Assembly: GCA_003574785.1 (NCBI GenBank)
Contig: QORU01000003.1
Coordinates: forward strand, 62,001-126,000
DNA from: Taklimakanibacter deserti
GTDB lineage: Bacteria > Pseudomonadota > Alphaproteobacteria > Rhizobiales > Aestuariivirgaceae
Direction: 5' to 3'
Length of the DNA stretch: 64,000 nucleotides
This document shows positions 22,879-62,060 of this stretch, piece by piece. The translations under genes were made by a program, and so were the position numbers. The notes beneath the pieces were generated by a model. That model was not told the DNA's origin, did not search any database, and was given only the letters and a program-made list of their open reading frames with translations. Position 1 is the first letter of the stretch. Every line of letters begins with the position of its first letter.

Positions 22879-22892
22879 TTGATATCGGTCAA
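22879..22892. promoter_or_regulatory. FNR/FixK box upstream of the nhaC remnant
   Basis: TTGATATCGGTCAA matches TTGAY-N4-RTCAA. It lies 112 bp before the nhaC start, so it survives although the gene is broken. Confidence 0.65.
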
Positions 22893-23079
22893 GAGTGAAA
22901 AGAATTCGCGCCTGGCCCCGAGGCGTCAAGTGGCGCTCCTGTCTCGCCCGTAGTCCAGCGATAGGTCCTTAAAGTCCCCGGATCGCCGTCGTGGTCGCCG
23001 GAGAGTCCGAATTCCCGATCCTTGCTTATTGCTCGACAGGGGTGAATGTGCCCCCGCAGCCAGCTACACTCCCGCAGAG

Positions 23080-23093
23080 TTGATCAAAGTCAA
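23080..23093. promoter_or_regulatory. FNR/FixK box upstream of cax
   Basis: TTGATCAAAGTCAA is a full match to the consensus, 152 bp before the exchanger start codon. Confidence 0.6.
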
Positions 23094-23245
23094 AATGAAC
23101 AACTGGGCGGCAGTGATAGAAAGATTGGTCATATGAGGGGAGCATCATGGCATGAGCCGTCACGAGCGTTCTGCCAGCAAGGACGAAATGGCCGGCTTCC
23201 GGCAGGCTGGCCTTCGCGAGCCCACTAAAGCTGAGCCAAATTAGG

Positions 23246-24295
23246 ATGAACTTACTTCTCATCTTTGCGCCCATTGCAATCACTCTGGAAATTTTCGCTC
23301 CCGAGCGCTATCTCCTTGTCTTCCTAAGCTCCTCGCTTGCCATCGTGCCTCTTGCCGGCTGGTTGGGCCGCGCCACGGAGCATCTTGCGGCGCGAATGGG
23401 GGATGGAGTTGGAGGACTCCTTAACGCGACCTTTGGCAACGCAGCTGAACTTATCATCGCGCTCGCCGCATTGCGTGCCGGGCTTCACGACGTGGTGAAA
23501 GCGTCGATCGCCGGTTCAATAGTGGGTAATATTCTGCTTGTGCTTGGTGCTGCCATGTTGGCCGGAGGCCTCCGCCATTCCGAGCAGCATTTCAACGCCG
23601 CTGGGGCGCGTTCTCAAGCGACGATGCTCATGCTTGCGGCGATAGCTTTGATTCTTCCCGCTGCCTTTCAGCTCAGGGTGGGTGCGACCGCCGAGATGCT
23701 CGACCAACTCAGTGTCACGATTTCCATCGTCCTCCTCGTTGTTTACGTGCTGTACCTCGCGTTTGTGCTCATCACCCATTCTGCTCTGTTCCAGGGCCCT
23801 TACCGGCAAGAAGAAAAAGAAGCCCACATGTCCGTCAGCCGGGCCATCCTAGCGCTCGCGGCGGCGACAGTGGGAATTGCCTGGATGAGTGAGATCATGG
23901 TGGGTGCGATCGAACCCACAGCGCACGAATTTGGCCTCAGCGCCGTGTTCGTCGGCGTGTTCGTTGTCGCGATCCTGGGAAACGCCGCCGAACACGCAAC
24001 AGCCATTACTGCAGCGTTGAAAGACCGTATGGACCTTGCGCTCTCAATTGCCATGGGCTCCAGCATACAAGTGGCGCTCTTCGTAGCTCCGGTTCTTCTG
24101 CTTACGAGCATCTTTCTAGGCCCGAGCCAGATGGATCTTGCCTTTACGGGCGGACTCGTCCTGATGGTCCTTCTGTCCACGCTCATCACGAGTCAGGTTG
24201 CTGGCGACGGCCGGTCCGACTGGCTTAAAGGCCTGCAGTTGCTCGCCGTATATATTGTCTTTGGCCTGACCTTCTTTTTCCTGCCAACCAAGTAA
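23246..24295 (+). CDS. Ca2+/H+ (cation/proton) exchanger, CAX family
   Basis: The 349-residue membrane protein has about eleven hydrophobic segments and two alpha repeats of the cation/Ca2+ exchanger superfamily. The first repeat is GNAAELIIALAALRAG with AGSIVGNILLVLG. The second is GNAAEHATAITAALKDRMDL with GSSIQVALFVAP. The paired G-N-A-A-E motifs are the ion-binding centres. An acidic linker (RQEEKEAH) separates the halves. It probably exports Ca2+ or Na+ in exchange for protons. Confidence 0.9.
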   Translation: MNLLLIFAPIAITLEIFAPERYLLVFLSSSLAIVPLAGWLGRATEHLAARMGDGVGGLLNATFGNAAELIIALAALRAGLHDVVKASIAGSIVGNILLVLGAAMLAGGLRHSEQHFNAAGARSQATMLMLAAIALILPAAFQLRVGATAEMLDQLSVTISIVLLVVYVLYLAFVLITHSALFQGPYRQEEKEAHMSVSRAILALAAATVGIAWMSEIMVGAIEPTAHEFGLSAVFVGVFVVAILGNAAEHATAITAALKDRMDLALSIAMGSSIQVALFVAPVLLLTSIFLGPSQMDLAFTGGLVLMVLLSTLITSQVAGDGRSDWLKGLQLLAVYIVFGLTFFFLPTK

Positions 24296-24333
24296 CAAGC
24301 GGACGTTCCGCTGGCGCTGTTGGAAAAAACCGC

Positions 24334-60278: not shown

Positions 60279-61031
60279 ATGACCAAGACACTGCAAAGCT
60301 CAGAACGTATTGCCCCGATTTTTCGCTGTCAGCACTGCGCCGTGCGCAACCGCGCTGTCTGTGGGGCAATGAGCGATGAGCAGATCGCCCGGTTGAGCGA
60401 AATATCGCACCGCAAGAAATACGCGGCCGGACAGATGATCATGTCGGACCAGGAGCCGGTCACCTTCTTTGCCAATGTCATCTCGGGCACCATCAAGCTC
60501 ACCAAGACGATTGCCGACGGCCGGCAACAGATCGTGGGCCTCTTGTTTCCGCCGGACTTCCTCGGGCGGACATTCAGCCGCAGCAATCCCTATTTTGCCG
60601 AGGCGGCAAGCGATGTCGAAGTGTGCATGTTCCCGAACGAGGGCTTTGAGCGCCTGATCGATATCTATCCCGAGCTCAAGCACCGCCTGTTCGAACGCAC
60701 TTTGGACGAGCTTGACGCGGCGCGCGAGTGGATGCTCCTGCTCGGACGCAAGACCGCCGAAGAGAAGGTCGCAAGCTTCCTGCTGTTGCTCGCCCGTCGA
60801 AGCGTGATGGCCGATTGCCCAGGCGAGAGCGAGCCCGTCGTGAGACGGTTCGACCTTCCTCTCAGGCGTGCGGATATCGCCGACTATCTCGGGCTCACGA
60901 TCGAGACGATCAGCCGTCAACTGACAAGGCTGAAGGCGGCTGGAATCGTCGACATGATCGACACGCGTACATTGGAAGTGCCTGATATCGAGGCCTTGGC
61001 GGAAGCTGCCGGGCAGGATACGGGGCTTTGA
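60279..61031 (+). CDS. fnr: FNR-type oxygen-sensing transcription regulator
   Basis: The 250-residue protein has cysteines C17, C20, C28 and C116 (FRCQHCAVRNRAVCGAM and VEVCMFPNE) in the pattern that holds a 4Fe-4S cluster in FNR/FnrL. The HTH is RADIADYLGLTIETISRQL, with the E-x2-S-R recognition pattern for TTGAT. It is divergent from hemN and has a box 61 bp upstream, so autoregulation is likely. Confidence 0.92.
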   Translation: MTKTLQSSERIAPIFRCQHCAVRNRAVCGAMSDEQIARLSEISHRKKYAAGQMIMSDQEPVTFFANVISGTIKLTKTIADGRQQIVGLLFPPDFLGRTFSRSNPYFAEAASDVEVCMFPNEGFERLIDIYPELKHRLFERTLDELDAAREWMLLLGRKTAEEKVASFLLLLARRSVMADCPGESEPVVRRFDLPLRRADIADYLGLTIETISRQLTRLKAAGIVDMIDTRTLEVPDIEALAEAAGQDTGL

Positions 61032-61041
61032 CGCAAGTCAA
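61028..61041. promoter_or_regulatory. FNR/FixK box upstream of the USP gene after fnr
   Basis: TTGACGCAAGTCAA is a full match that overlaps the fnr stop codon, 53 bp before the chosen USP start at 61095. Confidence 0.75.
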
Positions 61042-61094
61042 TGGAGGACGGGTGAGGCGGTGCCAGAATGCCGGCTCATTCTCTGGGCCGCACC

Positions 61095-61937
61095 ATGTCA
61101 TTCCGAACCATTCTCACCAACCTCAACGAAACAGCCAATAACGAAGCCGTCATTGCCACTGCGGCCACCCTGGCGCGCGAATTCGAAGCACGTGTGACAG
61201 GACTCTATGTCGTGCCGGCGGCGCCGGTTTATCCGGCTGCCCGCTATGAGCCGATTCCGGAGATGTTTGAAACCCACCGCGAGTTCTTCCGCCGCCAGTC
61301 CGCCTCGGTCGAGGCAGCGTTCAGAGCCGGCTTTCCGGAAGGCTCGGCCCGCCATCGGCTGCGAATCGACAAGTCAGCCAGCCCTCTGATCGCCGACAGT
61401 GTGATAGAATCGGGCCGTTGCTACGATCTCATCTTGCTGAGCAAGACCGACACGAAATCCGAACTCGGTGTCGAGCTGGATTTTGTGCCACGCATAGCCG
61501 TGGCGGCCGGCCGGCCGGTCATGGTCGTCCCATTCAAGAAGCCGATGACTTCCGTTCCCGAAACGGTCGTCATCGGCTGGAACGGCTCGCGTGAGGCCGC
61601 TCGCGCCCTGTTCGACAGCCTGCCCATCCTCCAGCGTGCCAAGACGATTCATGTGATCTGGGTCGATCCACCGGCCGAGCGCTCGCGGTCCGAGACAAGT
61701 CCGGGCGAGGGGATCGCCGACGCCCTGAACCTGCATGGGATCAAGGTCGTGGTCACTCCGGTCGCGGGCAGCGATAAGACTGCAGGGGAGATCCTCTTGC
61801 AGAAGGCAGCCGATGCGGGCGCCGGCCTGCTGGTTATAGGTGCCTATGGACATTCGCGCTTGAGCGAGTTCATCCTCGGTGGCGTCACGCGCACGGTATT
61901 GCGGGACATGAAATGTTCCGTCCTCCTCTCACACTGA
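61095..61937 (+). CDS. Universal stress protein (tandem domains)
   Basis: The 280-residue reading from ATG 61095 (MSFRTILTNLNETANNEAVI) has two UspA domains, ending IGAYGHSRLSEFILGGVTRT. An earlier ATG at 61068 would put the FNR/FixK box only 26 bp upstream, so the box spacing supports 61095. No strong ribosome-binding site decides between them. Confidence 0.88.
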   Translation: MSFRTILTNLNETANNEAVIATAATLAREFEARVTGLYVVPAAPVYPAARYEPIPEMFETHREFFRRQSASVEAAFRAGFPEGSARHRLRIDKSASPLIADSVIESGRCYDLILLSKTDTKSELGVELDFVPRIAVAAGRPVMVVPFKKPMTSVPETVVIGWNGSREAARALFDSLPILQRAKTIHVIWVDPPAERSRSETSPGEGIADALNLHGIKVVVTPVAGSDKTAGEILLQKAADAGAGLLVIGAYGHSRLSEFILGGVTRTVLRDMKCSVLLSH

Positions 61938-62046
61938 AAAAGAGGGAAATGACAGCAATATCGGTCTCATTTGAGATCGATCGATGCGCGTCCACTGATC
62001 TTCAAGCCACTTGTCGCCCGGCAATTCAGGAGCGCTCCTGACCGCC

Positions 62047-62060
62047 TTGACATACATCAA
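62047..62060. promoter_or_regulatory. FNR/FixK box upstream of the HlyD gene
   Basis: TTGACATACATCAA is a full match, 75 bp before the HlyD start. Confidence 0.7.

Follow-up and report, generated by a model that had tools for sequence, protein, structure and literature searches.

A probable low-oxygen regulon with its own controllers in a ~40-kb stress-gene island of Taklimakanibacter deserti

The circuit of hFixL, FxkR, FixK and FnrN is known from studies of root-nodule bacteria, in which its task is respiration for nitrogen fixation (PMC7888657). As described for Rhizobium leguminosarum and R. etli, the cascade consists of a hybrid FixL, FxkR encoded beside a divergent fixK, and FnrN with two anaeroboxes, acting on TTGAT-N4-ATCAA targets, and FxkR binds the K-box GTTACA-N4-GTTACA upstream of fixK; in Rlv3841 the cascade genes, divided between pRL9 and the chromosome, drive fixNOQP (PMC7888657, PMC4999443). 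In Bradyrhizobium diazoefficiens, universal stress proteins (USPs), CBS and host-attachment proteins, HemN and alcohol dehydrogenase are higher in microoxia and several are marked as direct FixK2 targets (PMC6515984), and in R. leguminosarum UPM791 an anaerobox-bearing small heat-shock gene is induced ~50-fold microaerobically through FnrN (PMC11784457). The lxa locus of Burkholderia, ~50 genes in one stretch including six USPs, BON and cytochrome c, is reportedly induced when oxygen is low and has a part in anoxic persistence (PMC6127331, PMC9104464, PMC9733578). Here we analysed a stretch of 64,000 bases from Taklimakanibacter deserti (contig QORU01000003.1, positions 62,001 to 126,000), referred to as the window, and searched it for the anaerobox, defined as the full TTGAY-N4-RTCAA pattern. 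A ~40-kb block of the window is very probably a self-contained low-oxygen regulon packed with its own controllers.

An exact pattern scan of the window returned 23 full anaeroboxes, the first starting at 22879 and the last ending at 62060, and none before 22879, precisely the count given in the initial annotation. Its estimate that the pattern should occur by chance well under once in this length also held: dinucleotide shuffles contained 0.22 boxes on average and three at most, and none of 100 shuffles reached 23. A relaxed TTGA-N6-TCAA scan returned the identical 23 sites, so that every site has the Y and R positions of the full box. Where two near matches had been claimed, four sites with one mismatch were listed (17818, 30615, 40020 and 44793); with 4.56 matches in all expected at that stringency, such sites are no commoner than chance and carry little weight by themselves. 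Only the site at 30615, between a USP gene and a cytochrome c gene, is well placed. Most full boxes do lie just upstream of genes, 18 of 23 being no more than ~160 bp from a plausible start codon, a count for which we used the open reading frame (ORF) 57309-57668, the HlyD start at 62136, an ORF start at 27760 (28066 is the preferred alternative) and the chosen EF-hand start at 35109. The boxes at 22879, 33269, 33584, 57918 and 58132 have no plausible start within that distance.

Genome-wide box density was determined in Taklimakanibacter lacteus (Hyphomicrobiales, Aestuariivirgaceae), the closest relative found, as a proxy. When the named genome collection was searched with the acyl-CoA synthetase of the island, two loci were obtained, one in T. 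lacteus (79% identity) and one in a Hyphomicrobiales metagenome-assembled genome (MAG; 53%), and RluD, which adjoins the island, is 85% identical in T. lacteus. The T. lacteus genome of ~5.8 Mb contains 35 boxes, compared with one match to a reversed-pattern control, and 20 of them fall within ~50 kb of contig C22 (122289-172493), where box density is ~150 times that of the remaining genome. An equal density of sites across the genome, which would argue against a local regulon, was thus not found in the proxy. Seventeen window genes between 40 and 62 kb match C22 at 67-85% identity, with their order kept and inverted: USP, APH-AAA_33 fusion, synthetase, P-type ATPase, an orphan protein, FixK, regulator, USP, PAS kinase, USP, alcohol dehydrogenase, small protein, Host_attach protein, HemN, FnrN and USP. 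Two tandem window USPs have a single T. lacteus partner, and T. lacteus has extra ORFs in the gaps between the orphan and P-type ATPase genes, between the regulator and the adjoining USP and between HemN and Host_attach. Exact boxes are shared by the two species before the single partner of the tandem USPs, before USP4, before the first Host_attach gene and at the joint of fnrN and USP6, and the two boxes between hemN and fnrN start 29 bp apart in both. In all, eight window boxes were paired with seven T. lacteus boxes; their defined positions agree in 76 of 80 cases and their 40-bp flanks, compared without gaps, in 316 of 640. Most of the agreement within the boxes arises because both sequences match the pattern, and the evidence lies in the presence of full boxes at the same places. 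To the left of ~40 kb, most genes had no counterpart in the 80 kb of T. lacteus used for comparison (the remaining T. lacteus genome was not searched for them). The exceptions were relatives of cytochrome c, one weak hit for CBS and cross-matches among USPs, which points to a conserved core with variable cargo.

Promoter geometry was analysed in both flanks of 43 boxes from the two species, giving 84 flanks (44 from the window after dropping two near-duplicates, and 40 from T. lacteus). Of the 84 flanks, 25 have the dinucleotide TA at an offset of 21 or 22 past the box (12 at 21 and 13 at 22), and at most seven have it at any other single offset from 0 to 73. A TANNNT hexamer stands at offset 20-24 in eight of 23 window boxes and 10 of 20 T. 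lacteus boxes; controls at shifted positions averaged 1.1 and 1.0, respectively, and counts as high as those observed did not occur in any of 5000 draws. Such a distance from box to putative -10 element corresponds to class II FNR activation, the geometry that most FNR boxes in Sphingopyxis granuli are reported to have (PMC7713065), and on this basis the boxes look like real promoters.

The island encodes two predicted oxygen sensors, a PAS kinase and an FnrN-like protein. The kinase (52602-54158, minus strand) carries a heme-type PAS domain, HisKA, HATPase and a C-terminal receiver; FixL heme domains were the best PDB matches of its PAS domain (1d06, E 6.5e-33), and with a FixL-type heme PAS and a receiver in one protein it appears to be a hybrid kinase of the hFixL type. 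The gene divergent from fixK encodes an OmpR-type response regulator (50831-51559, plus strand), which is 50% identical over 236 amino acids to a Sinorhizobium medicae regulator whose intergenic region carries an exact K-box; it is FxkR-like in its type and in its position beside fixK. The adjacent FixK-like CRP/FNR regulator (49992-50696, minus strand; the longest ORF extends to 50807, 50696 being the preferred start) has an FNR-type recognition helix and no N-terminal cysteine cluster, as in FixK. Its best NCBIfam model is FixK at 152 bits, below the cut-off of 300 for what is a Caulobacter model. The FnrN/FnrL-like regulator (60279-61031, plus strand) has a C-x2-C-x7-C motif plus a fourth cysteine, and cysteines 17, 20, 28 and 116 were identified as the FNR signature cysteines by alignment to solved FNR; its score lies below the equivalog cut-off of the NCBIfam FnrL model, which is built on Rhodobacter (261 vs 300 bits). 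As in FnrN, two anaeroboxes stand in its own promoter, in the region shared with divergent hemN (60176-60218). An interpretation of these boxes as the activate-then-repress pair of R. leguminosarum was not adopted, the fnr-proximal box having a -10 element at activating spacing. Together with the promoter geometry and the boxes at gene boundaries shared with the relative, the two predicted sensors support the initial proposal of one low-oxygen regulon.

The intergenic region between fixK and the regulator gene contains a triple repeat, TTGTG-N5-TTGTG-N5-TTGTG (50762-50786, plus strand), which read toward fixK is GACACA-N4-GCCACA-N4-GGCACA. Of the three matches to the K-box at four mismatches in this region, two are the repeat itself, with half-sites of the form G-N-C-ACA spaced by 10 bp. 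The 43-bp block that includes the repeat differs from T. lacteus at two positions, and its surroundings differ widely. With up to two mismatches allowed, the triple repeat is found twice in the window, where 0.01 occurrences are expected. The second copy (26118-26142, minus strand, with CACA-type half-sites on the plus strand) lies upstream of what may be a small membrane protein (ORF 26045-26413, whose start is likely near 26210). In S. medicae the plasmid locus carries an exact K-box, and the loci of Terrarubrum and Agrobacterium carry degenerate relatives with 10-bp spacing. We infer that the triple repeat is a candidate operator of the FxkR-like regulator, that is, a variant K-box with three half-sites.

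From these elements the following sequence of events can be proposed. At a moderate fall of oxygen, oxygen would leave the PAS heme of the hybrid kinase and the OmpR-type regulator would become phosphorylated; the phosphorylated regulator would bind the triple repeat and switch on the FixK-like gene together with the downstream genes for the P-type ATPase, acyl-CoA synthetase and kinase fusion. FixK would then bind anaeroboxes across the island, including those before fnrN, and near anoxia FnrN would build its iron-sulphur cluster and act at the same boxes. Both proteins are presumed to recruit the housekeeping RNA polymerase in class II fashion and to raise expression of the USPs, HemN, cytochromes c, BON and CBS proteins and the rest. 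Every binding, phosphotransfer and oxygen-dependent step in this scheme is one that we infer, and the gene classes suggest survival of hypoxia as its outcome.

Box-rich stretches recur in Hyphomicrobiales, some of them on rhizobial plasmids. Comparison of the kinase with plasmid records gave 3617 matches, nearly all below 60% identity and many surely other kinases, with the best (61%) in Rhizobium; among 15 matches listed, six loci were read. The stretches read contain 13 boxes in Rhizobium sullae, seven in S. medicae, four each in Terrarubrum and Agrobacterium, one in Rhodobacter sp. CZR27 (41.5 kb) and none in R. etli 8C-3 (35.7 kb), the last two being kinase loci without a box cluster. On the whole R. 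sullae plasmid of 2.76 Mb, 27 of the 38 boxes lie within 119 kb, and the box-rich stretch adjoins relatives of the BON, kinase, P-type ATPase, synthetase and APH-AAA_33 genes. The plasmid of S. medicae T10 has in a row genes for the regulator, a Crp/Fnr protein, PAS kinase, synthetase-GNAT, USP, a pyridoxamine-oxidase-type protein and BON. In one 8-Mb genome of the order, at least 15 boxes were seen in 47 kb (contig C1, 6091659-6138635), away from its synthetase gene.

The occurrence of related loci on plasmids leads to the origin of the island. A horizontally moved cassette inserted at tRNA-Glu would be compatible with a self-controlled regulon, and we regard this origin as possible, if somewhat doubtful. 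Homology to T. lacteus contig C13 spans 18597-20102, stopping 17 bp past tRNA-Glu (20010-20085), the mean GC content drops from ~0.63 before 20 kb to ~0.59 after it, and the T. lacteus core is on a different contig, where the 80 kb read contain no tRNA. However, C13 is only 3.8 kb long, so that T. lacteus may be the side on which the homology breaks; Pfam revealed no integrase domain in the ORFs scanned, which did not include every ORF near tRNA-Glu; no 13-base exact copy of tRNA-Glu or of its next 25 bases was found elsewhere in the window; and the right border lies beyond it. Soon after tRNA-Glu, pieces of a Na+/H+ antiporter-family gene occur in more than one frame (21281-22549, minus strand), the gene being apparently broken, and after the same tRNA-Glu in T. 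lacteus an ORF (3063-3734 of locus L064) resembles a REP-associated transposase by eye.

The boxes might instead serve a genome-wide FNR/FixK regulon run from elsewhere, the island being simply a place rich in target genes, with only a minor part for its kinase and regulators. Anaeroboxes are common in the family of T. lacteus, with 2-104 per genome against 0-20 for controls in 60 genomes, and six other genomes of the order contain 16-88 each; moreover, 15 of the 35 T. lacteus boxes are not part of the C22 cluster, and two further, distant CRP-family relatives are found near the core on C22. Nevertheless, more than half of the T. lacteus boxes are within 50 kb around these regulators, and the two boxes of the fnrN/hemN promoter recur with identical spacing, as local control predicts, and we consider control from elsewhere unlikely.

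Besides this abundance of boxes in the family, several observations weigh against a self-contained regulon. By the rule used, 15 of 23 window boxes have no TANNNT at class II spacing. Three of the 11 window boxes in the syntenic core (57702, 57918 and 58132) have no partner in T. lacteus, two of these (57918 and 58132) have no obvious gene, and 13 of 20 T. lacteus boxes have no partner in the window, while the pair at the second Host_attach gene (box 58674; 49.6% identity) is not syntenic. Within 60 kb of the synthetase, six other genomes, picked for long contigs among the 205 with a synthetase relative, have few boxes (3, 5, 2, 0, 5 and 2); the Hyphomicrobiales MAG has seven in total and none in 22.7 kb around its synthetase. 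Finally, an exact K-box is absent from the intergenic region of fixK and the regulator, where the closest matches have four mismatches of 12; the circuit would thus work like the hFixL-FxkR-FixK cascade as a relative and not as a strict member.

A third explanation is a strict dormancy regulon of the DosR type. The mycobacterial DosR regulon is a USP-rich hypoxia programme governed by the NarL/LuxR-type DosR with GAF-heme kinases, and the seven USP genes of the island and its HisKA_3 kinase (26612-27478) fit such a programme. The boxes, however, are of the FNR type, and Pfam reported neither a GerE/LuxR-type regulator nor a GAF domain in the 50 window ORFs scanned, which makes this explanation highly improbable. 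An artefact of chance or base composition on a short palindrome, with which the chance-level number of one-mismatch sites would agree, is refuted by the shuffles, the reversed-pattern control and the -10 spacing past the boxes, and is given practically no credence.

The left part of the regulon, as we read it, begins with two anaeroboxes (22879-22892 and 23080-23093) upstream of a Na+/Ca2+ exchanger-family gene (23246-24295, plus strand), followed on the minus strand by a CYTH-CHAD gene (24334-25944) with a box at 26006-26019 and by the HisKA_3 sensor kinase gene with a box at 27572-27585. On the plus strand, a box at 27705-27718 precedes two genes, one for a protein that matched no Pfam family (27760 or 28066 to 29043) and one for an MscS-type channel (29068-30033). 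The near-match box at 30615 lies between a single-domain USP gene (30091-30552, minus strand) and the gene for cytochrome c (30670-31308, plus strand). Next on the minus strand are a USP gene (31657-32436) with box 32501 and a CBS protein gene (32606-33040) with box 33269, which ends at 33282. Boxes 33584 and 33904 precede a protein with three BON domains (33977-34624, plus strand), and TATATT is found 20 bp past box 33904. An EF-hand protein gene (34735 to ~35109, minus strand) has box 35174, and box 35412 stands before genes for YeeE-type (35462-35956) and DUF6691 (35722-36411) proteins on the plus strand. The island also contains a sulfatase-family gene (38241-39884, minus strand) that has no full box near it.

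From 40 kb on, the minus strand carries two tandem units of a USP and a small-protein gene, 40170-40796/40772-41611 with box 41668 and 41878-42264/42240-43079 with box 43136, and TATAGT is 21 bp away from both boxes. The stretch 40170-43149 appears to be a tandem duplication of the unit plus its box, the second small protein being shortened. The genes downstream of fixK, all on the minus strand and syntenic in T. lacteus, encode the orphan family protein (49491-49982), the heavy-metal P-type ATPase (47520-49406), the acyl-CoA synthetase with a GNAT domain (44769-47513) and the APH-AAA_33 fusion (43154-44725). The orphan has 53 relatives in the protein database with no Pfam domain listed, the named ones mostly hypothetical; those with an organism name are from T. 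lacteus, Nordella sp. HKS 07 and a Parvibaculaceae MAG, and among 397 genomes of the order a relative was found only in T. lacteus. It seems to mark the island lineage and to be a better marker than the synthetase, which was rejected for this purpose because a relative at E 1e-120 occurs in 205 of the 397 order genomes; at E 1e-150 the synthetase was found in one of 69 family genomes, T. lacteus itself.

Beyond the regulator gene, a USP gene (51656-52525, minus strand) has a box at 52581-52594, present likewise in T. lacteus. Then follow on the same strand a USP gene (54254-55099), a zinc alcohol dehydrogenase gene (55192-56184) and a small-protein gene (56181-56594), with order kept in T. lacteus, and the gene for a Host_attach/baeRF12 protein (56619-57077) with box 57128, ending at 57141, where both order and box are kept. 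A small cytochrome c gene (57309-57668, minus strand) has box 57702 (to 57715). The perfect boxes 57918 and 58132 (57918-58145) have no clear target gene; they might belong to a small RNA or to a gene that has decayed, and box 58132, its flank included, resembles box 57128. A second, partial Host_attach-like gene with box 58674 (58200-58687, minus strand) is followed by the gene for HemN, the oxygen-independent coproporphyrinogen III oxidase (58721-60139, minus strand; TIGR00538, 458 bits with a cut-off of 325). On the plus strand, a box at 61028-61041 overlaps the end of fnr and precedes a USP gene (61068-61937), an arrangement kept in T. lacteus, and the box at 62047-62060 precedes the gene for an HlyD-type export protein (62136-63233).

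In its gene classes the island agrees with published microoxia regulons. What goes beyond the initial annotation is the set of sensors and relay encoded within it, together with the candidate variant K-box; no report of this island was found in the literature searched, most subscription papers lying outside that search. No symbiosis gene was seen among the scanned island proteins. Similar parts beside stress genes raise the testable question whether hypoxia survival outside symbiosis is the older use of the circuit, and the conserved repeat provides a concrete candidate operator for FxkR-type regulators. More tentatively, and with less confidence than the cassette origin, the locus might represent a self-contained and transferable module by which Hyphomicrobiales survive low oxygen outside symbiosis. 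Its two oxygen sensors, its FxkR-like relay with a new K-box of three half-sites and its anaeroboxes, more than 20 of them on stress genes, would then travel as a set, independent of nitrogen fixation. If true, this would suggest that the symbiotic cascade of rhizobia was recruited from a general hypoxia programme.

Compared with the hFixL cascade, the island corresponds in the hybrid FixL-like kinase, the FxkR-like regulator beside a divergent fixK, the twin-box FnrN-like protein and the anaerobox targets. It differs in the candidate K-box, a variant with three half-sites, and in that its controllers lie within ~11 kb among USP and other stress genes, unlike the scattered genes of Rlv3841; the island ORFs that were scanned yielded neither a cbb3 catalytic subunit nor any nif or nod family. 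The locus on the S. medicae T10 plasmid, with seven boxes in 41.5 kb, shares the regulator trio, synthetase-GNAT, USPs, BON, P-type ATPase and YeeE; neither HemN nor a second FNR was found in the stretch read. With the FixK2 regulon of B. diazoefficiens the match is at the level of gene classes, its FixK2-controlled genes being spread over many loci. The betaproteobacterial lxa locus, compared by gene names only, has six USPs against seven here, with BON and cytochrome c named in both; its protein table also includes PhbB, phosphofructokinase and a heat-shock protein, none of which was seen in the island. The DosR regulon is similar in USP richness and unrelated in regulator class and operator, so that the likeness to DosR drawn in the initial annotation holds for role only. 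By analogy, the island may thus be regarded as DosR- and lxa-like in role.

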